Shown here one piece after another: positions 1,291-40,520 of a stretch of 41,798 bases of DNA (the first letter of the stretch is position 1; each line of letters opens with the position of its first letter). This DNA comes from Kofleriaceae bacterium (lineage in GTDB: Bacteria > Myxococcota_A > Polyangia > Haliangiales > Haliangiaceae): contig JANTGM010000048.1 of the NCBI GenBank assembly GCA_024762925.1, forward strand, positions 1-41,798, written 5' to 3'. Made by a program: the position numbers and the translations under genes. The notes beneath the pieces are model-generated. The model was given only the letters and a program-made list of their open reading frames with translations, made no database searches and was not told the DNA's origin.

Positions 1291-1476
1291 CTGGTCCGGC
1301 GGGACTGGATCGATAGAACGCGCTCACTCATCTTCTCGCCCGCTGGAGAGACTGGCTCAGCCAGTCTTCTTTGTTGTTCCTCGGTCGCTTGCCCCAGCAA
1401 ACTCCCTCTTCCCGCCTCGCCAGCAAACGAGCTGACTTCGCGATTCACGAATCAATATCCATGGATCGCGCACTAG
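1291..1476 (+). repeat. MITE-like CTAG-ended repeat, copy 2 (left end decayed)
   Basis: The sequence from about 1313 (ATAGAACG) to 1476 is nearly identical to copies 1 and 3. The right end ATCGCGCACTAG (1465-1476) is intact. The left inverted repeat is not recognisable; CTGG at 1291 may be what remains of CTAG, so the left border is approximate. The core at 1388-1440 is the best conserved part of the family. The right half also contains CGCGATTCACGAAT (1439-1452), a direct copy of the left-end core. Confidence 0.7.
1349..1377 (+). terminator. Hairpin plus T-rich tract inside repeat copy 2
   Basis: AGACTGGC / TCA / GCCAGTCT forms a perfect 8-bp stem (1349-1367) followed by TCTTTGTTGTT. Equivalent hairpins occur at 185-203 and 41705-41723; the loop and one stem position vary while pairing is kept. 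The T tract follows on the plus strand, opposite to the flanking genes, so any termination would block antisense reading. The tract is interrupted by G, so terminator strength is doubtful. Confidence 0.4.
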
Positions 1477-3131
1477 AACGCATTGTCGCCGCGAGCCGGG
1501 GGAACGCCCCAGCCTTTGAGTTTTCGCCACAAGGTGTTGGCACCAATGCCAAGCGCTTTCGCCGTACGGGTTCGGTTCCCTCGATAGCGCTCGAGCACTT
1601 CCAGAACGTAGCGCCTTTCAATCTCAGCCATAGACAAGACTTGGTCGTGTTGCACCTTGGCGAACTCGTCCCGGATGCTTCGAAGCGACGGCGAGAGATG
1701 GTCGACCTCAACTTTGGTCTTCGAGCCCGCGAGAATGACGGCTCGCTCCATGGCATTTCTCAGCTCCGTGAGATTGCCGGGCCAACTATGCCCAACAAGC
1801 GCCTCGGCGACCTTGGGAGAAAGCGTCTTCTGTTCGATCTCGCTTCGAGCGCACGCCTCGGCAAGATAGTGTCGTGCGAGTGGCAAGACGTCCTCTGTTC
1901 GCAATCGCAACGGTGGTACTTCGAGGTTCATGACATTGAGAAGGTAGTAGAGGTCATTGCGAAAGCGCCCTTCCTGCGTGAGCTGTCCCAGGTCCCTGCT
2001 GCTTGTTGCCAAGATTCGCAAGTCGATCGCGCGTGGAGTGTTGGCACCCGTGGGCCAAATTTCATTCTCTTGAATGGCACGGAGCAGGGCGACTTGGCTT
2101 GTTGGCGACATCTGCCCCACTTCTTCAAGTACGAGTGTGCCACCCCGCGCTTGCTCAAAGAGCCCGGTCTTTGCGGAGATTGCACCGGGAAGCGCGCCGG
2201 GCTCATGCCCAAAGAGTTCGCTGTTAAACAGTGCTTCGGGCAGCGCTCCGCAGTTGATGCGCAGCAGTGGGCCATCGGCGTTTTCGCCTTGAGCATGGAG
2301 GTAGCTGGCGATCTCTGCCTTGCCGGTTCCGCTCTCGCCCGAAAGAAGGACGACGGAGTCGCTGAGGGCAACGGTATCACAGAGGGAAAGCAGCTTGTTC
2401 ATCTCGGGGCTGACGGCCGTTGGATGCCGCCCCTTTGGCATGCTGCTCAAGCGCCGCTCTTCTCGTTTGCGGGAGGCCCGCTTGGCGCTGCTCTCATGAA
2501 GCTCTCTCGCCCGTGCCTTGAGTTCGTTGGCGAGGGGCTGAGCTTGGTAGTCCCTTGCAACTCTGTCACCATCGTCGGCCCAAGCTCTACGAGTTTTACC
2601 TACGACACGACAGCAGTCTCCACCCATGGCCGCGCACTCTGTTTCTACGACGATACACTCCTCGCCCATCAGCGCGGTTGCAAAGCCCGAGGCAAACCCC
2701 GCAAGTGTCCAACAGACAGGTTCGGTTGCGGACGTTGCAATGCGCTTGTGCTGTTCCACTTCGTAGGAATGAGTCCACTCGACCTCCATCTCAAAAATGC
2801 CCTTTTCTCGATCGACCTTGAGGTGCTGGACATCGGGATTTACTTTGCCTTCGTTGCGCTGCAGACTCGGACACGAGAGCCACCACTCTTCGTCGCTTTT
2901 CCAATCGACGAGAGATTTCGTGGTGAGTGCATCTCGGTAGCCATTGGCGAAACCGAAGCGCTTGAGGATTGGGCGCGCTTGGTTGCTTCCCAGCGATTCG
3001 ACGAGTTCGTGGCGCAGGTTGCCAAATGCATCTGCGTCCCACAGCAACATTCGTCGCTCCTTGAAGCGGATGGAGCCTTCGTTTTGGGCAAAGTCGAGAA
3101 GGTCGAGCAGGTGCAGTTCTGATGCTTTCAT
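1473..3131 (-). CDS. Sigma-54-dependent activator, XylR/DmpR type (V4R sensor, AAA+, Fis HTH), with GALPGA loop
   Basis: A 552-residue enhancer-binding protein. Residues 1-180 form an XylR-N/V4R sensor like that of DmpR and XylR, which bind aromatic effectors; the cysteine cluster ETECAAMGGDCC (164-174) matches the V4R metal-site region. Residues 235-485 are the AAA+ domain with Walker A GESGTGK (265-271). Residues 495-543 are a Fis-type HTH. Three departures stand out: the sigma-54 contact loop reads GALPGA (312-317) instead of GAFTGA, Walker B has LEEV rather than LDEI, and the WPGN motif is followed by LTEL rather than VREL. The start ATG has GGAG about ten bases upstream. The stop codon comes from the repeat end at 1473-1476, and the tail after the HTH is short. 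It may be a divergent activator, or a repressor that no longer engages sigma-54. The target is unknown; the nearest divergent gene is at 3403. Confidence 0.85.
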   Translation of the reverse strand: MKASELHLLDLLDFAQNEGSIRFKERRMLLWDADAFGNLRHELVESLGSNQARPILKRFGFANGYRDALTTKSLVDWKSDEEWWLSCPSLQRNEGKVNPDVQHLKVDREKGIFEMEVEWTHSYEVEQHKRIATSATEPVCWTLAGFASGFATALMGEECIVVETECAAMGGDCCRVVGKTRRAWADDGDRVARDYQAQPLANELKARARELHESSAKRASRKREERRLSSMPKGRHPTAVSPEMNKLLSLCDTVALSDSVVLLSGESGTGKAEIASYLHAQGENADGPLLRINCGALPEALFNSELFGHEPGALPGAISAKTGLFEQARGGTLVLEEVGQMSPTSQVALLRAIQENEIWPTGANTPRAIDLRILATSSRDLGQLTQEGRFRNDLYYLLNVMNLEVPPLRLRTEDVLPLARHYLAEACARSEIEQKTLSPKVAEALVGHSWPGNLTELRNAMERAVILAGSKTKVEVDHLSPSLRSIRDEFAKVQHDQVLSMAEIERRYVLEVLERYRGNRTRTAKALGIGANTLWRKLKGWGVPPARGDNAF

Positions 3132-23991: not shown

Positions 23992-24016
23992 TCCCTTTGC
24001 AATCAACCGGTTGCAC

Positions 24017-24080
24017 TCTTGTTCTAGTAATATCAGTGTGTTACTCGTCGCGGACGCTGGTGCGATTCTTGCTCTAGCTA
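24017..24080 (+). repeat. Two 14-bp direct repeats 50 bp apart upstream of the MYXO-CTERM gene
   Basis: TCTTGTTCTAGTAA (24017-24030) and TCTTGCTCTAGCTA (24067-24080) agree at 11 of 14 positions. They sit in the leader before 24095. AACCGGTT (24005-24012) is a short palindrome just before the first unit. They might be regulator sites; nothing further is visible. Confidence 0.35.
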
Positions 24081-24094
24081 GGGGGACCTTGCCA

Positions 24095-26263
24095 ATGTCT
24101 TCCATGGTCCCCACCCCCAAAGTCTTTCTCCCAGGCCTCTGTCTCGCAACCTACCTCGCTGTGATGGTCGCCCCAAGTGAGGCGCTGGCCCAACACGATG
24201 TGCGTGTCTTTCTCGCAGAAAGCGGTGTGGACTTTGTCGCCGATAATGCTCCGGCTGCATTGCCCTCCGTCTTTGAGCTGCCAACCATCACAAAGTCGTT
24301 CACCTGCATGGACTTCGAGCAGAGCAACACCACCGTCAACATGGGCATTGACCGCCTCGACATCGACATGCCTTCGCAAGATCGCATAGTCGTTGACCTA
24401 GATTTCAACATTGCTGCAAATGGCGAGCTTTTTGCCGACGATCTTTATGCCTGTTTTGGTTCGGCAACGTGTCAGGACACCATGCAACTCGACAAGGGAA
24501 CGGCAGTTCTCCAGTTTGATGTGGAGATTGTTGGCGGTGAGCCACGAGTAGCGACTCATGACATTGATTTGACCGTTAATCCCGAGGACTTTGATTTTGT
24601 TTTAGATGAGTGTGGCTTCACAGGAAGCGCACTAACAACGGCAATCGACTTCACCGAAGGTTGGATTCTAGACTACGTCGAAGGCAAAATCATCACCATG
24701 GCTGAGGAGAACTTTGCTCCAATGCTAGAAGATACGCTCTCTGGATTGGCGATGGAGAGCATCTATATGAGGGCCTCCGTTGAGGACCTCTACTTCCCAA
24801 ACGATGGTGTTAGCGTGACCATTGACTCGGGCTTCCCATATACAAGGGCTGCGGCAAAGTGCATGGAGGCTTTTGACAAGCCTCGCCCAAACCGCGCAAC
24901 TGGCGCCTCGGTTCCCGATATTCAGGCAGGCACAAATGACGTCAACATGGCTGTCAACTTCGGCCTGCTCAACGATGCGCTCTACGCTGCTTGGCGAACT
25001 GGCGTCTTCTGTCTCACAGACAAGCACATTGCAGGGCTTGGCGTCGAAGTTGATCTCAGCATGGTGGGCGCGATGATGCCTGGCTTTCCTGCAGGCACCG
25101 CATTCTCATTGGAATTGAACTTCACCGACTATCCGCAGGTACGCGGTGCGGGAACTGATGCATCAAGCCTGACCTTGGAGGTCGAGGGCATCGAACTGCA
25201 AATTCATGGAGATCGTCCTGATGGCACCAGAAATACTCTGGCGGCCGAGATCAGTCTGGAAGCCACAGCAAAGCTTGGTGTCAGCCCTGGTAGCAATGCA
25301 ATCTACGCTCAGCTCGCTGGCGCGGAAATCACTCACATGCGAATGACTGACGAGCGGGACGCAACTGGTGCTGGCTTTGATGTTGCCCGCATCCAGCAGC
25401 TTGTGCACCAAGCCATACTCCCTCACATGCTTCATGAGATGGGCCCAATTCCCCTTACCGGCCCAGTCTTTGAGGTTTCAGACTACGCCATCCTCCTGCG
25501 CAGCATCGAAACCAACAAGGCCTATGCCGCTGCCGGCGTTGACCTTTTCGCCATTCCCGCCAACGACACTACAGCCCCAGACACCAGCATTGTAGACGCA
25601 CCTGCCTTGGGCAATGCGCACAGCGCAGTGATTCGCGTCAGTGGTACGGATGCAGAGATTCCAAGTGACCTTCTAAAGTACCAAGTGACAGTAAACGGTG
25701 AGGCTCGCGAGCCAACGTTTATTCGTGACATCAAGATTGGAGCTGCAGGCTTCACAAACAACTACGACGTTACGATTGCCGCCGTTGATCTTGCTGGCAA
25801 TGTCGATTCGAGCCCAGCGCGCGCCACCATGCTTGTTGATGGCATCGTTCCATTTGTTGCTGTCCAAGGTGCTCGCACACGAGACGCCGACGAAGGTCCA
25901 ACCGAAGTGCGTTGGAACATGAGCGACGATACTACCGCCACAGAGGCGCTAACTGCGCGTTTGGAAATCTACGAGCTCGCCGACCCTGCTGATGCGCTCT
26001 CCGCAAAGCTTGTGGAGACACAAGAGCTTGCGCCTGGTGTTACTAGTGCGATGGTTGATCTTGAGAAGGCTGGCGGGTTGTACCGAGTAGAAATCCATGT
26101 CGTTGATGAAGCGGGAAACGACTCGCGTTCTTCACTTCTGCTCAGCAGTGCGACCGTCGGTGGTTGTTCCACCAGTGGAAGTCGCGGCGGTAGCAGTGCC
26201 GCACTCCTGCTCGTAGCGCTGCTCCTTGTTTGGCGTCGCCAACGTCGCCAACGTTCGCTGTAG
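24095..26263 (+). CDS. Large secreted MYXO-CTERM surface protein
   Basis: 722 residues from ATG 24095, supported by AGGGGGA about ten bases upstream; the frame extends to 24011 but that part has no conserved character. A Sec signal peptide ends near LALA. The body is acidic and beta-rich (repeated DxD/NxN turns), resembling an LBP/BPI-like or other lipid-binding fold only faintly. DTTAPDTSI starts an Ig-like domain (about 520-600), and a second such domain follows. The end is a MYXO-CTERM tail: GGCSTSG, hydrophobic helix LLLVALLLVW, then RRQRRQR. Such tails mark proteins for processing at the surface. Function unknown. Confidence 0.75.
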   Translation: MSSMVPTPKVFLPGLCLATYLAVMVAPSEALAQHDVRVFLAESGVDFVADNAPAALPSVFELPTITKSFTCMDFEQSNTTVNMGIDRLDIDMPSQDRIVVDLDFNIAANGELFADDLYACFGSATCQDTMQLDKGTAVLQFDVEIVGGEPRVATHDIDLTVNPEDFDFVLDECGFTGSALTTAIDFTEGWILDYVEGKIITMAEENFAPMLEDTLSGLAMESIYMRASVEDLYFPNDGVSVTIDSGFPYTRAAAKCMEAFDKPRPNRATGASVPDIQAGTNDVNMAVNFGLLNDALYAAWRTGVFCLTDKHIAGLGVEVDLSMVGAMMPGFPAGTAFSLELNFTDYPQVRGAGTDASSLTLEVEGIELQIHGDRPDGTRNTLAAEISLEATAKLGVSPGSNAIYAQLAGAEITHMRMTDERDATGAGFDVARIQQLVHQAILPHMLHEMGPIPLTGPVFEVSDYAILLRSIETNKAYAAAGVDLFAIPANDTTAPDTSIVDAPALGNAHSAVIRVSGTDAEIPSDLLKYQVTVNGEAREPTFIRDIKIGAAGFTNNYDVTIAAVDLAGNVDSSPARATMLVDGIVPFVAVQGARTRDADEGPTEVRWNMSDDTTATEALTARLEIYELADPADALSAKLVETQELAPGVTSAMVDLEKAGGLYRVEIHVVDEAGNDSRSSLLLSSATVGGCSTSGSRGGSSAALLLVALLLVWRRQRRQRSL

Positions 26264-35864: not shown

Positions 35865-36794
35865 ATGAGACTTGCGCATTGCTCTGACCTACATCTTCTA
35901 AGCCTAGAAGGTGCAGGCGTTCTGGACTTCGCCAACAAACGTTGGATTGGTGGGCTCAACTTGCTCACGAACCGTGGTCGCCATCATCAGTCATCCATTT
36001 TCGAAGCGATGATTGAAGACCTCAACCGTCAAGAGGTAGATCACATCCTCGTGACTGGTGACGTAACGAACTTGGCACTCGATGAAGAGTTTCGATTTGC
36101 CAAGAGCCTCTTCGACCGATTTGATCTTGGTCCCGACAAAATTACGGTTCTTCCGGGAAACCACGATGCATACGTGCAAAAGGGCGCAAAACACTTCAAG
36201 ACCCACTTCCAAGAGTTTTTCGTAAGCGACGAAGGACGCACCAATGGAGAGACCTGGCCGTGTGTCCGTCGACGTGGCCCCGTATCGATTCTCGGTCTCT
36301 CAACGAGTCTGCAGACACCTTGGTTCACAGCGTATGGCGTGATTGGAGATGAGCAACTCGACCGATTGCGCACCGCACTCATGGCGCCAGAGCTCGCAGA
36401 CACCCTCAGGCTTGTTGCGATTCATCACTCGCCCGCTGAGCCCAGAGCACGCTCGCGAGTGCGGGGCCTACGAGATCGCGCCAAGCTCTATTCGCTTCTT
36501 GAAGAGGTGGGCGCAGAGCTCATTTTGCATGGCCATGAGCACCTCGATTTGACGGCCAGCCTGCCAGGTAAGACCGGTGATGTCCCGGTTCGAGGCATAC
36601 AATCAGGCACTTACGATGCTGGGGATGGGGCGGCTCACAAGCGCGCCCGCTACAGAATCTACGAAATTTCTGATACTTGCGAATCTGGCCGGCGGCCAAC
36701 CGTGTTGGGGGAGGAGCTTCGGCTCTGGGACCCTGGCCGCAAGTCGTTTGTGCAAGAAGAGACGGTTGCGCCCGCAGCTTCTGCGACCGCATAA
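35865..36794 (+). CDS. Calcineurin-like metallophosphoesterase
   Basis: 309 residues. The five metallophosphoesterase blocks are in order: SDLH (7-10), GDVTN (65-69), GNHD (98-101), AIHHSP and GHEH. They bind two metal ions. The length and the spacing resemble the cyclic-nucleotide or CpdA/YkuE-type cytoplasmic enzymes, and there is no signal peptide, so the substrate is open. The C-terminal 60 residues (RIYEISD onwards) are a beta cap region. Its position before an operon with phospholipid-synthesis enzymes is noted but does not establish a role. Confidence 0.85.
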   Translation: MRLAHCSDLHLLSLEGAGVLDFANKRWIGGLNLLTNRGRHHQSSIFEAMIEDLNRQEVDHILVTGDVTNLALDEEFRFAKSLFDRFDLGPDKITVLPGNHDAYVQKGAKHFKTHFQEFFVSDEGRTNGETWPCVRRRGPVSILGLSTSLQTPWFTAYGVIGDEQLDRLRTALMAPELADTLRLVAIHHSPAEPRARSRVRGLRDRAKLYSLLEEVGAELILHGHEHLDLTASLPGKTGDVPVRGIQSGTYDAGDGAAHKRARYRIYEISDTCESGRRPTVLGEELRLWDPGRKSFVQEETVAPAASATA

Positions 36795-36851: not shown

Positions 36852-36939
36852 TCGCGAGTGGGCACAACGACCCTAAGAAACGACTTGTTTCATAGCGCCT
36901 CCTGGAACATGCCCCTTTGCCAAAGTGGAACCGAAGATC

Positions 36940-38241
36940 ATGAGTACACAAGACACCAAGAAGAAAGACGCCGATGAGCTGCTAGCGAGAGACGAGAAGT
37001 ACGTCATTCGCCCATGGACAGGCACCGGCGAGCCCGTTCCCGTTGTCGAAGGAAGAGGCTGTGTCATTAAGGATGCGTACGGCAAAGAATTCCTCGATTT
37101 CACATCGGGGTATTTCGTAAACCAGGCTGGCCACTGTCATCCAACCGTTGTGGCTGCAGCAACCGCCCAGCTCTCGCAGATAACCCAGGTGTCGGGGCGT
37201 CACACAACGATTCCCCTCGTGAACTTGGCCGAACAACTCGTCGAGTTGTCGCCGAAGTCTCTCACGAAAGTCTTCTTCACAACCGGGGGCTCCGAGTCCA
37301 ATGAGTTCGCGCTTAAGATGGTGCGGCAAAAGTCTGGCAAGGGCGACATCATGAGCCTAGAGAATGCCTATCACGGCCTTTCTCTTGGTGTGCTTGGCGG
37401 ATGTGCTTCGGAAAAGTACCGCAAGACCGCAGGCATCGAGTTGCAGGACAACTTCGTTCGCGTGCCAACGCCTTACGCCTACCGACATGCTGGCGACTCA
37501 GACTGCACGACATTCTGTCTGGAAGCCGCCGAGAAGGAGTTTCAGAAGAACTCCAATATAGCCGCAGTGATTGCCGAGCCGATACAAGCGGTTGGTGGAA
37601 TCATTCCGTCGCAGCAATACTGGGATGGAATGGCAGCTCTGTGTGATAAATACGGGGTTTTTCTTATTCTCGATGAGATTCAAACTGGCATTGGCCGTAC
37701 AGGTGCCATGTTTGCCGCGGACCACTACGGGCTTGAGCCAGACATCATGACGATTGGCAAAGGCCTCTCGGGCGGCGTTGGTTCTCTTGCTGGTGTCCTC
37801 GCTTCTGACGAACTCGTTGAAGGGTTTTATGGCGGTACCACGCCAACCTCTGCAGGCAACGCTGTATCTGCTGCGGCTGGGCTTGCTCTCATTGGAGTTC
37901 TGCAGGAAGAGAAGATGATTGAAAATGCGGCCAACATGGGCGTGTACTTCACGGAGGCCGTTGCAGCACTGAAGGATCCGTGGGTCGGCGACATTCGATT
38001 CAAAGGCCTTCTTGGTGGCGTAGAGCTTGTTTCAGACCGCGAGACGAAGGCTGTTCTTCCCAAAGAGCTGGTTGTCAAAGTGAAAGATACTCTGTATGAG
38101 GATGGCATGCTTATTACCGTTAGTGGGTTGCATGGAAATGTTCTTAGACTCCAGCCATCGCTCTGCATAACCTCCACGCAGCTCGACTCGTTCGTAGCTT
38201 CGTTAAAGAAGGCGCTTGACAGCGTTCGCGGCCAGGCCTAG
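36940..38241 (+). CDS. Class III (PLP) aminotransferase
   Basis: 433 residues from ATG 36940 (GGAA nine bases upstream; GTG 36925 is the alternative). Fold type I class III: FTTGGSESNEFALKMVRQ binds the cofactor phosphate, NAYHGLSLG follows, FLILDEIQTGIGRTG holds the Asp that contacts the pyridine nitrogen, and MTIGKGLSGG holds the PLP Lys. Members transfer amino groups between omega-amino acids (GABA, beta-alanine, ornithine, glyoxylate) or act as phospholyases on phosphoethanolamine. The substrate is not visible. The gene is followed by a phosphatidyltransferase gene at 9 bp, which hints that the product could be an amino alcohol or its precursor; this is inference. Confidence 0.88.
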   Translation: MSTQDTKKKDADELLARDEKYVIRPWTGTGEPVPVVEGRGCVIKDAYGKEFLDFTSGYFVNQAGHCHPTVVAAATAQLSQITQVSGRHTTIPLVNLAEQLVELSPKSLTKVFFTTGGSESNEFALKMVRQKSGKGDIMSLENAYHGLSLGVLGGCASEKYRKTAGIELQDNFVRVPTPYAYRHAGDSDCTTFCLEAAEKEFQKNSNIAAVIAEPIQAVGGIIPSQQYWDGMAALCDKYGVFLILDEIQTGIGRTGAMFAADHYGLEPDIMTIGKGLSGGVGSLAGVLASDELVEGFYGGTTPTSAGNAVSAAAGLALIGVLQEEKMIENAANMGVYFTEAVAALKDPWVGDIRFKGLLGGVELVSDRETKAVLPKELVVKVKDTLYEDGMLITVSGLHGNVLRLQPSLCITSTQLDSFVASLKKALDSVRGQA

Positions 38242-38250
38242 GAACGCGGT

Positions 38251-38925
38251 ATGAATCTCTTTGCGCTTCGCAAGCAGCTCGACAAGATCTTGCTCCCGCT
38301 TGTTTCCAACATTGCCAAGTTGCCTCTGCATGCCAATCACTGGACGTTGCTCGGGGCATTTGTCGGCCTTGCTTGTTCAATCTTCTTTCTCTACGGCATG
38401 TGGTGGCCAGGGCTTGCGCTCTTGCTGGGGCGCGGCTTGATCGATCACATTGATGGCTACAAAGCTCGCAACTTCAACCAGCGATCGACCTTTGGCGCTG
38501 TTATGGATGACGTCACCGACCGTTGGGTTCTCGGAATCATCTATGCCGGCGCCTGTTTGAAACTCAGCTTTGACTATCCCCACGTGCTCATCGTCTTGGG
38601 CTTCGGAATCACAGGCTCGCTCTCCAACGTCATTGCGAAACTCAGCATCTACGCCGAGTCTCAGCAGGATCTCTTCCGCGAGCAGGGCAAGATCGGTCAT
38701 CCAATTGATGTCGTAGGCCTCTTTGGCTCTGCTGAGTTCATCATCTATTTTGGGATGGGTGTTCTTTGGACCGCAATTCTTGGCGACCTTCGGCCACTTC
38801 TCGCGGGTGTTTGGGCGGTTGCAATCATGTCGCACCTCTCGCTGTTTCAACGAATCATCTTTGCGTGGCAGCGATATCGTCACGTTGATCCTGGCGCAAT
38901 TGAGCAACAGGTGGCAGAGAGTTAA
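38251..38925 (+). CDS. CDP-alcohol phosphatidyltransferase (first of two)
   Basis: 224 residues, about six membrane helices. The family motif D-x2-D-G-x2-A-R-x8-G-x3-D-x3-D is complete: DHIDGYKAR, then NFNQRSTF, then GAVMDDVTD (residues 65-91). It joins a CDP-linked diacylglycerol or CDP-alcohol with an alcohol to make a phospholipid in the inner membrane. AGGA lies before the ATG. The acceptor alcohol cannot be read. The second enzyme starts 3 bp after the stop. Confidence 0.9.
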   Translation: MNLFALRKQLDKILLPLVSNIAKLPLHANHWTLLGAFVGLACSIFFLYGMWWPGLALLLGRGLIDHIDGYKARNFNQRSTFGAVMDDVTDRWVLGIIYAGACLKLSFDYPHVLIVLGFGITGSLSNVIAKLSIYAESQQDLFREQGKIGHPIDVVGLFGSAEFIIYFGMGVLWTAILGDLRPLLAGVWAVAIMSHLSLFQRIIFAWQRYRHVDPGAIEQQVAES

Positions 38926-38928
38926 TCT

Positions 38929-39453
38929 GTGGGCGGCGATATTGTAAATCCGGCAAACGCGATTACCTTTTCGCGCTTCTTCACGCTACCTCCATTTGTC
39001 ATGTACATGGAGCAGGGCAAACCGCAAATGGCGCTGCTCATGGCACTCTTGTGTGGTTTTATGGATCTCTTTGATGGCATGGCAGCGCGGAAGTTCGATT
39101 GCAGCTCAGCCTTTGGTGAGTTCTTCGACGCCGCCTCTGATGCGATCTGCTACGGCTTCATGCTGGGCTACCTGGCTTGGTCCGGGCATCTGCCCTGGGA
39201 ACCCATTGCACTCATTTGCGGGCTTGGTGCGATCAATAGCGTTGCTCGGGTTCTCTATGCCAAGCGCATTGGCAAGGCAACGAACTACCGTTCATGGGCC
39301 ATGGAGCGGGTCGTTGGTTACCTGGCCTACCTCGTGGGCTTTGGCACCGCGGGCATTTCGCCAGTTTTCTACGCCTGGGCCGGAGCTGGGCTCATGCTCT
39401 TCATCTTGGGGCATGATCTCAAGCGCATGCTCATTGATCCGGTGCCAGCATGA
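38929..39453 (+). CDS. CDP-alcohol phosphatidyltransferase (second of two)
   Basis: 174 residues from GTG 38929. The full motif is present: DLFDGMAAR, KFDCSSAF, GEFFDAASD. The N-terminus NPANAITFSRFFTLPPF resembles PgsA/PssA-type enzymes. It differs strongly from the preceding 224-residue paralogue, so the pair likely uses different alcohols or substrates. The ATG of the next gene overlaps the TGA stop. Confidence 0.88.
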   Translation: MGGDIVNPANAITFSRFFTLPPFVMYMEQGKPQMALLMALLCGFMDLFDGMAARKFDCSSAFGEFFDAASDAICYGFMLGYLAWSGHLPWEPIALICGLGAINSVARVLYAKRIGKATNYRSWAMERVVGYLAYLVGFGTAGISPVFYAWAGAGLMLFILGHDLKRMLIDPVPA

Positions 39454-39659
39454 TTGTTTCCAACACGGTCTTTCTCTGGTTCTGCACCTTCATGGTTCTC
39501 GGGCTCGCCGTTGTGTGGACTCTTTGGGACGGCAATCTCATTCGCCGGCTTTGGAGCACGCGCAGAGAGAATCACGACGAGTTTTTTGGCGCCCTGATGG
39601 GCATCGTTATCATGATCATTGGAGTCACGGGCGTGATTCTGCACCACCAGGCGCTGTGA
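39450..39659 (+). CDS. Small two-helix membrane protein, 69 aa
   Basis: ATGA overlap with the preceding phosphatidyltransferase gene argues that it is real and translated with it. Two hydrophobic segments (about 6-26 and 47-65) flank a charged loop (RRLWSTRRENHDEF). I know no named family. A subunit or regulator of the lipid enzymes is plausible. Its last 35 bp overlap the opposing MBL-fold gene. Confidence 0.7.
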   Translation: MIVSNTVFLWFCTFMVLGLAVVWTLWDGNLIRRLWSTRRENHDEFFGALMGIVIMIIGVTGVILHHQAL

Positions 39660-40455
39660 GTTCGAGCGCTTCGCCATGGCTGAGTACGCGCAGAAGTTCG
39701 CTCACGCCAAGGTTTGCCGCGAGTTCTTCAATCTTGTTGCGAGGCGCCGCACCGCTGTGAAAGAGGCGCAGGTTCAAGGTCCCCCAGTGGACAGGCACCA
39801 GACGTGTCGCCCCCAGCCGCTCGGCGATGTGCAGGGCTGTTTCGGGACAAATATGGACGCCTTTGTCGAGCTTGGCCTGTTTGGCGGCGTAGTACCAGGG
39901 GGGAAGCATGCCGCCAATTGGCAGCATCGTGGCGTCGATATCAAAGTCTTTACCGATGGTGTCGAACACATCGTACGTCGACATGTCGACATCGCCGGCG
40001 TGGTGAACCACAATGCCATCCTTCTGCAAGATGTAGCCAACACAGATGGGCTTGTCCGCTTTCTTCCAGCGGCCGTTGTCGTGTCGCGTCTCAACGGCGA
40101 TGACATCGATGCCTCCACAGGCAAAATGGTCCCCGGGCTCGGCCTCCAAGACCTCGGAGAATCCCATGTTGTCAACAATGGGCTTGGCGCCCTTTGGCAC
40201 GATCAACTTGACGGACTTATCGAGTTTGGAGAGTGTCCACCGGTTGAGATGATCGACGTGGGAGTGTGTAATCAGAATCGTGTTGTACGGACTCGCGCTC
40301 AATGCCCGTCTGCGCCCGAGAGGGTCGATCAATATTCGGTCTTCACCAAACGCCACAAGGGCACTTGCGTGTCCCAACCACACGATGTGTGGATTGGCGA
40401 GCGAACTCGCACCCGTCTCCGAACTGCTCGGGGCTGTTCCAACCGAATCGCTCAT
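39625..40455 (-). CDS. MBL-fold metal-dependent hydrolase (NAPE-PLD/UlaG-like)
   Basis: 276 residues from ATG 40455. WLGHASALVAF starts the fold; HSHVDHL is the metal motif, with further ligands at GDVDMS and VPVHWGTL. The pattern WxGHAxxL and VHWGT is seen in NAPE-PLD-like and UlaG-like hydrolases (lactonases, phosphodiesterases). No signal peptide. A longer frame to 40518 is rejected. It is divergent from the LysE-type gene (65-bp gap) and overlaps the small membrane protein gene tail to tail. Confidence 0.85.
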   Translation of the reverse strand: MSDSVGTAPSSSETGASSLANPHIVWLGHASALVAFGEDRILIDPLGRRRALSASPYNTILITHSHVDHLNRWTLSKLDKSVKLIVPKGAKPIVDNMGFSEVLEAEPGDHFACGGIDVIAVETRHDNGRWKKADKPICVGYILQKDGIVVHHAGDVDMSTYDVFDTIGKDFDIDATMLPIGGMLPPWYYAAKQAKLDKGVHICPETALHIAERLGATRLVPVHWGTLNLRLFHSGAAPRNKIEELAANLGVSELLRVLSHGEALELTAPGGAESRP

Positions 40456-40520
40456 TCTCGTTGTATAGCACGTCACACAAGTGCTGCTTGGCATGATGCC
40501 GCCACAACCCTGGGGCATGC

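Follow-up and report, generated by a model that had tools for sequence, protein, structure and literature searches.

We find that a class III aminotransferase gene, the genes of two widely different CDP-alcohol phosphotransferases and a gene for a small protein with two predicted TM segments form a compact set with intact catalytic motifs, that this set is conserved among the relatives of the bacterium, and that genes for the common phospholipids lie elsewhere in its genome. We judge the chances to be about even that the set is a lineage-specific operon for an unusual aminophospholipid head group, beyond PE. The bacterium is a Kofleriaceae-type myxococcote with an assembly of 6.8 Mb, in which the genes lie on contig C48; this contig, at its full length of 41,798 nucleotides, is the window to which all coordinates refer.

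Four genes form a compact and conserved operon

All four genes are intact open reading frames on the + strand. The aminotransferase gene (AMT) runs from an ATG at 36940, or an alternative GTG at 36925, to 38241, and is followed by CDP1 (38251-38925, 224 aa), by CDP2 (38929-39453, 174 aa, GTG start) and by SMP (39450-39659, 69 aa). The gaps, when re-measured, were 9, 3 and -4 bp, exactly as the initial annotation had claimed, the last being a 4 bp overlap of SMP with CDP2. The full catalytic motif that had been ascribed to both transferases, D..DG..AR(8)G...D...D, is indeed present in their translations, and their wide divergence was likewise borne out, with 25% identity over 138 aa. The differences from locus L055 are biased toward the third codon position in all four genes (0.10/0.06/0.43 by codon position for CDP1 and 0.32/0.22/0.51 for SMP), and thus the conservation of the four genes is more than chance. 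Relative to locus L056, the bias is seen in AMT, CDP1 and CDP2 and is absent from SMP (0.49/0.38/0.49 over 55 codons), for which the reading frame in L056 looks truncated. A scan for promoters and terminators was of no use here, since its counts (3 promoter-like and 6 terminator-like sites) were close to those in shuffles (1.7 and 6.2). Elsewhere in the window, positions 1476-3131 (-) encode a sigma-54 activator that carries XylR_N and V4R domains, and a 750-residue open reading frame at 24011-26260 (+) has no Pfam match at 1e-5.

The four genes had been judged very likely to form a single operon, and their failure to stay together in relatives had been set beforehand as a possible refutation. 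The genes did stay together: AMT, CDP1 and CDP2 share a strand at all 20 loci that were fetched, with AMT immediately upstream of CDP1 in every one, at gaps that range from -4 to 144 bp between AMT and CDP1 and from -8 to 77 bp between CDP1 and CDP2. SMP was found 3' of CDP2 in 19 of the 19 checkable loci, 14 by tblastn and 5 by reading of the open reading frames; the sequence of L074 stops too early for this locus to be counted. The gap between CDP2 and SMP, measured in 14 loci, is -4 to 26 bp, and is exactly -4 in 6 of them. In locus L071 (G013), CDP1 is split into two pieces in different frames, indicating that either the copy or the assembly is broken.

CDP1 has a match in 30 of the 35 genomes of the order (E 1e-10), and CDP2 has a match in the same 30; the genomes without them are G021, the incomplete G001 and three from other families, such that the absences behind this co-occurrence are few and phylogenetically clumped. 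The whole-genome search for AMT covered the family, with its 30 genomes. AMT reached the threshold in 29 of these 30, 28 of which have orthologues above 500 bits; the match in G021 is a paralogue of just 220 bits, and G001 has none; AMT orthologues are thus missing from this family wherever CDP1 and CDP2 are missing. In G030 and G031, which belong to another family, AMT adjoins CDP1. In wider samples, in which the best few candidates per genome were scored and weak relatives may therefore be missed, CDP1 was found at 1e-20 in 8 of 377 genomes of the phylum, all from its own order, and at 1e-12 in 33 of 289 genomes of the class, three of them outside the order, while AMT was found at 1e-85 in 27 of the 377, its score falling from 743 bits in the last of the eight genomes from its own order to 324 bits in the next. 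Viral contigs gave a single 54-base match, and a profile search of them gave none. The genome of G031 is 1.6 Mb in size, is listed as 98% complete, and retains the whole gene set (L073, contig C22); it has no match for Psd or Ino1, and a second class III aminotransferase is encoded on the operon contig.

Genes for the common phospholipids are found elsewhere in the genome

The genome has 13 matches to PF01066. We scanned 10 of the 11 proteins besides CDP1 and CDP2 (L153 was left out), and found that three are PgsA-like (one over the cut-off), two are PssA-like and one is PIPS-like (all three below the cut-off), while four have a weak match or none. Ino1 lies just downstream of the PIPS-like gene, and we set aside the idea that CDP1 is the PI synthase of this genome. 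Psd is found in 28 of the 35 genomes, including this one, which led us to set aside a replacement of PE synthesis as well. The presence of PgsA-like, PssA-like, Psd and PIPS-like genes elsewhere implies that the operon is an addition, and that PE, PG and PI are probably made without need for it.

CDP1 resembles PIP synthase but has an altered acceptor site

Both transferases are class I CDP-alcohol phosphotransferases by motif and by PF01066 score (46.4 bits for CDP1 and 70.1 bits for CDP2, against a Pfam cut-off of 22). CDP1 scores below the cut-offs of more specific models, with 53.1 bits for PIP synthase (NF045883, cut-off 170), 27.8 bits for PGP synthase (TIGR00560, cut-off 109.1) and 28.1 bits for PS synthase (TIGR00473, cut-off 107). 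The best Foldseek match of its predicted model (mean pLDDT 81.5) is PIPS, in agreement with the profile search, which also led to PIP synthase. CDP1 shares the catalytic motif and the six-helix fold with RsPIPS and MtPgsA1 (TM-score to query 0.61-0.73), but differs from these PIP synthases in a longer TM4-TM5 loop and in most of its acceptor residues. In an alignment with MtPgsA1 (hhalign probability 98%), from which we excluded the broken copy of L071, the positions of R94 and R195 are arginine in 20 of 20 sequences, whereas K135, R137, R152 and R155 are replaced by S, Y, H and D, respectively, in all 20. In the model of CDP1, TM5 begins from residue 160, which brings F163 instead of D153 to the R155 position; with either residue there, the arginine is absent under either alignment.

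CDP1 therefore does not retain the complete set of acceptor-phosphate residues of PIPS (R94, R155 and R195, with K135 and R137). The relevant passages of the structural reports tie R94, R155 and R195 to inositol-phosphate binding, and K135 and R137 less strictly (PMC4634129, PMC6506517). From the loss of most of these residues, the acceptor of CDP1 is probably other than inositol phosphate. An acidic residue at the R155 position would suit a cationic acceptor, and a phosphate-bearing acceptor, with which the retained R94 and R195 are compatible, is possible.

Some of the relatives of CDP1 point in another direction, in which the product of CDP1 and CDP2 would be a soluble phosphodiester, as with di-myo-inositol-phosphate synthase, made from a precursor aminated by AMT. 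CDP1 does score with the archaetidylinositol-phosphate and DIPP synthase models, and its ~42% identical homologues in G413 and G406, two genomes from beyond the order, each lie 3' of a gene for a MobA-like nucleotidyltransferase, the one in G413 being followed by a DIPPS-like CDP-OH protein. However, a Pfam search of the window found no nucleotidyltransferase beside the operon, and PIP synthases, which use lipid, give the best fold matches to CDP1, ahead of AF2299 and IPCT-DIPPS; we thus consider a soluble product quite unlikely.

The neighbours of CDP1 homologues outside the order were scanned for families in G413 only, where the 4.5 kb around the homologue also encode a third CDP-OH protein and an aminotransferase of class V, whose best model is PhnW-AepZ (184.8 bits against a cut-off of 360.8). 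In this one genome, then, a CDP1-type transferase has a different aminotransferase, unrelated to AMT, as its partner. The locus (L178, 3403-8599), with its three CDP-OH proteins, MobA-like nucleotidyltransferase and AEP-transaminase-like class V aminotransferase, is possibly another undescribed head-group cluster. The G406 homologue lies at a contig end, so that the neighbours on that side are not visible, and the CDP1 match in G374 is a stretch of ~97 residues, near which AMT was not found.

CDP2 is nearest to PGP synthase

CDP2 also scores below the cut-offs for PGP synthase (33.4 bits), PS synthase (35.7 bits) and PIP synthase (27.1 bits) in the models used for CDP1. Its closest solved relative by both sequence and fold is PgsA (PDB 7drj, 7drk), which is the best match in a PDB profile search (36.6 bits) and, for the predicted model (pLDDT 79.4), in Foldseek (TM-score 0.71, E 2.5e-3, 14% identity). 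The PgsA-like protein L144 of the same genome has a GKTKT stretch, but CDP2 does not. Residues N119, S122, A124, M125, E126 and K165 R166 M167 are invariant among CDP2 sequences. The acceptor used by PgsA is phosphorylated. The alignment of CDP2 with PIPS is unreliable, with an hhalign probability of 6%, and the automatic alignment and the by-eye spacing differ on the acceptor residues. Second copies of CDP2 lie on other contigs in two genomes: in L186 (9-2229, G012) followed by SMP, MBL and LysE genes, and in L187 (388-891, G007) on a 6.6 kb contig without operon genes.

The 69-residue SMP has two predicted TM segments and matches no Pfam family; that it is an accessory subunit is only a guess.

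AMT is set apart from class III aminotransferases of known function

AMT is a class III aminotransferase by its PF00202 score (315.5 bits, Pfam cut-off 30.5). Its orthologues are 55-72% identical, and all 10 of those that were aligned have K274, D245 and R403, which we take to be the PLP lysine, the ring aspartate and the carboxylate arginine. AMT shares this fold and these catalytic residues with class III enzymes such as PbfA (NF049939), PRK08117 and the amino-acid racemase 9wrf, but it scores below the cut-off of every NCBIfam model, and the fall in score beyond its own order sets its orthologue group apart. Judged by sequence, AMT has no close relative among enzymes of known function, and its distance below the NCBIfam cut-offs means that it may have a role in general amino-acid metabolism.

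The latter possibility belongs to an explanation in which the head groups made by CDP1 and CDP2 are nitrogen-free, of the inositol or glycerol type, and AMT is co-transcribed for amino-acid supply or catabolism, or for some other reason. Such products would be consistent with CDP1 being nearest to PIP synthase and CDP2 nearest to PGP synthase, by sequence as well as by fold, and with the likeness of AMT to amino-acid racemases and to class III enzymes of a general kind. However, the genome is already equipped with three PgsA-like genes and with a PIPS-like gene next to Ino1, and the position of AMT directly 5' of CDP1 is kept in every locus, even in the 1.6 Mb genome of G031. Thus, we regard nitrogen-free head groups as a serious but rather doubtful alternative.

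The best NCBIfam match of AMT, at 300.7 bits, is PbfA, a phosphonate enzyme, which together with the PhnW-AepZ-like aminotransferase at the G413 locus would fit a phosphonolipid operon with de novo synthesis of 2-aminoethylphosphonate. We consider this highly improbable: the PbfA cut-off is 525 bits, and PEP mutase (TIGR02320) is over its cut-off of 319.55 in none of the 35 genomes of the order (the best match, in G005, has 263.2 bits) and has no match in the genome studied here. The lack of PEP mutase is why we set this reading aside.

Neighbouring genes include a candidate phosphatase and a NAPE-PLD-like hydrolase

Upstream of AMT, a metallophosphoesterase (MPE, PF00149) is encoded at 35865-36794 (+). 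MPE holds this position in 19 of the 20 loci; in the remaining one, L072, the sequence 5' of AMT is only 240 bases long. MPE is also present in 34 of the 35 genomes, four of which lack CDP1 and CDP2, and it was therefore set aside as an operon-specific part. Among these four genomes, MPE is divergent from Ino1 in G021 (L181, 6203-7132) and lies tail-to-tail with a CDP-OH gene, a few bases away, in G034 (L183, 6237-7145), while neither an Ino1 nor a CDP-OH gene was found adjacent to MPE in G033 and G032. Based on its place beside the operon here, beside Ino1 in G021 and beside a CDP-OH gene in G034, MPE may be a general head-group-phosphate phosphatase.

On the other side of the operon are an MBL-fold hydrolase (Lactamase_B_2; 39625-40518, -), for which the nearest solved sequence is NAPE-PLD (E 2.4e-11), and, divergent from it, a LysE-type translocator (PF01810; 40521-41147, +). 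The two genes lie 3' of the operon in 16 of 20 loci. The 30 of 35 genomes that have CDP1 and CDP2 are also the ones with the NAPE-PLD-like MBL gene, including genomes in which it is away from the operon. In G025, about 100 kb separate the MBL-LysE pair from the operon; we consider them loosely linked and have set them aside as true operon members.

A proposed pathway and its relation to known systems

The unusual aminophospholipid proposed in the initial annotation has held up in part and is the reading that we favour. The presence of common-lipid genes (PE, PG, PI) elsewhere, the loss of R155 in CDP1 and the co-occurrence of a NAPE-PLD-like hydrolase all fit it, while the substrates, the products and the order of the steps are ones that we infer. 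In this pathway, AMT would use a carbonyl precursor and an amino acid donor to form a small amino alcohol or its phosphate, and CDP1, CDP2 or both would transfer phosphatidyl from CDP-diacylglycerol onto the amino alcohol, yielding an aminophospholipid beyond PE, with the two-TM protein SMP as a putative helper of one transferase. Should the acceptor of CDP2 be phosphorylated, like that of PGP synthase, MPE could strip the leftover phosphate.

The most specific form of the aminophospholipid proposal has phosphatidylserinol, the 2-amino analogue of phosphatidylglycerol, as the product of the operon. AMT would transaminate dihydroxyacetone phosphate, and the resulting serinol phosphate, being similar to glycerol 3-phosphate, would be joined to CDP-diacylglycerol by the PgsA-like CDP2; MPE, as an unrecognised head-group-phosphate phosphatase, would then take the phosphate off, and CDP1 would make a second, related lipid from a free amino alcohol. 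This version is speculative, and we assign it a low probability.

If the aminophospholipid reading is true, a bacterial family has an undescribed membrane lipid class together with its pathway. The relatives that carry the operon are metagenome assemblies, and an operon expressible in E. coli would provide a practical handle on their membranes. The enzyme families are already known, but we found no description of their combination in the open-licence PMC literature, in keeping with the earlier statement that no described operon with this gene set was known. Likewise, searches of that literature for serinol lipids or for metallophosphoesterases acting as lipid phosphatases found no such operon described, and the word phosphatidylserinol was absent from the top five matches.

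There are precedents for individual steps. The sections of the reports cited here describe C. jejuni Cj1437 as an aminotransferase that converts dihydroxyacetone phosphate to (S)-serinol phosphate (PMC11800397), and Bradyrhizobium elkanii RtxA as catalysing the same first step (PMC3222319). In the C. jejuni capsule, as presented in the same portion of that study, a phosphatase acts after the attachment of serinol phosphate (Cj1437/Cj1435; PMC11800397). This system is thus a precedent for serinol phosphate followed by a later phosphatase, but its target is the capsule, not a lipid, and its phosphatase is of the HAD superfamily, whereas the one linked to the operon is a metallophosphoesterase. 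A parallel in gene arrangement is seen with the Bacteroides inositol-lipid cluster BT_1522-BT_1526, in which, as set out in the part of the report cited, a head-group precursor enzyme, a CDP-alcohol transferase and a lipid phosphatase are clustered (PMC9246714). The Bacteroides cluster, as given there, differs in having no aminotransferase and in having a phosphatase of the PgpA family, not a metallophosphoesterase. As a candidate phosphatase of head-group phosphates, MPE would fall outside this PgpA family identified in Bacteroides.
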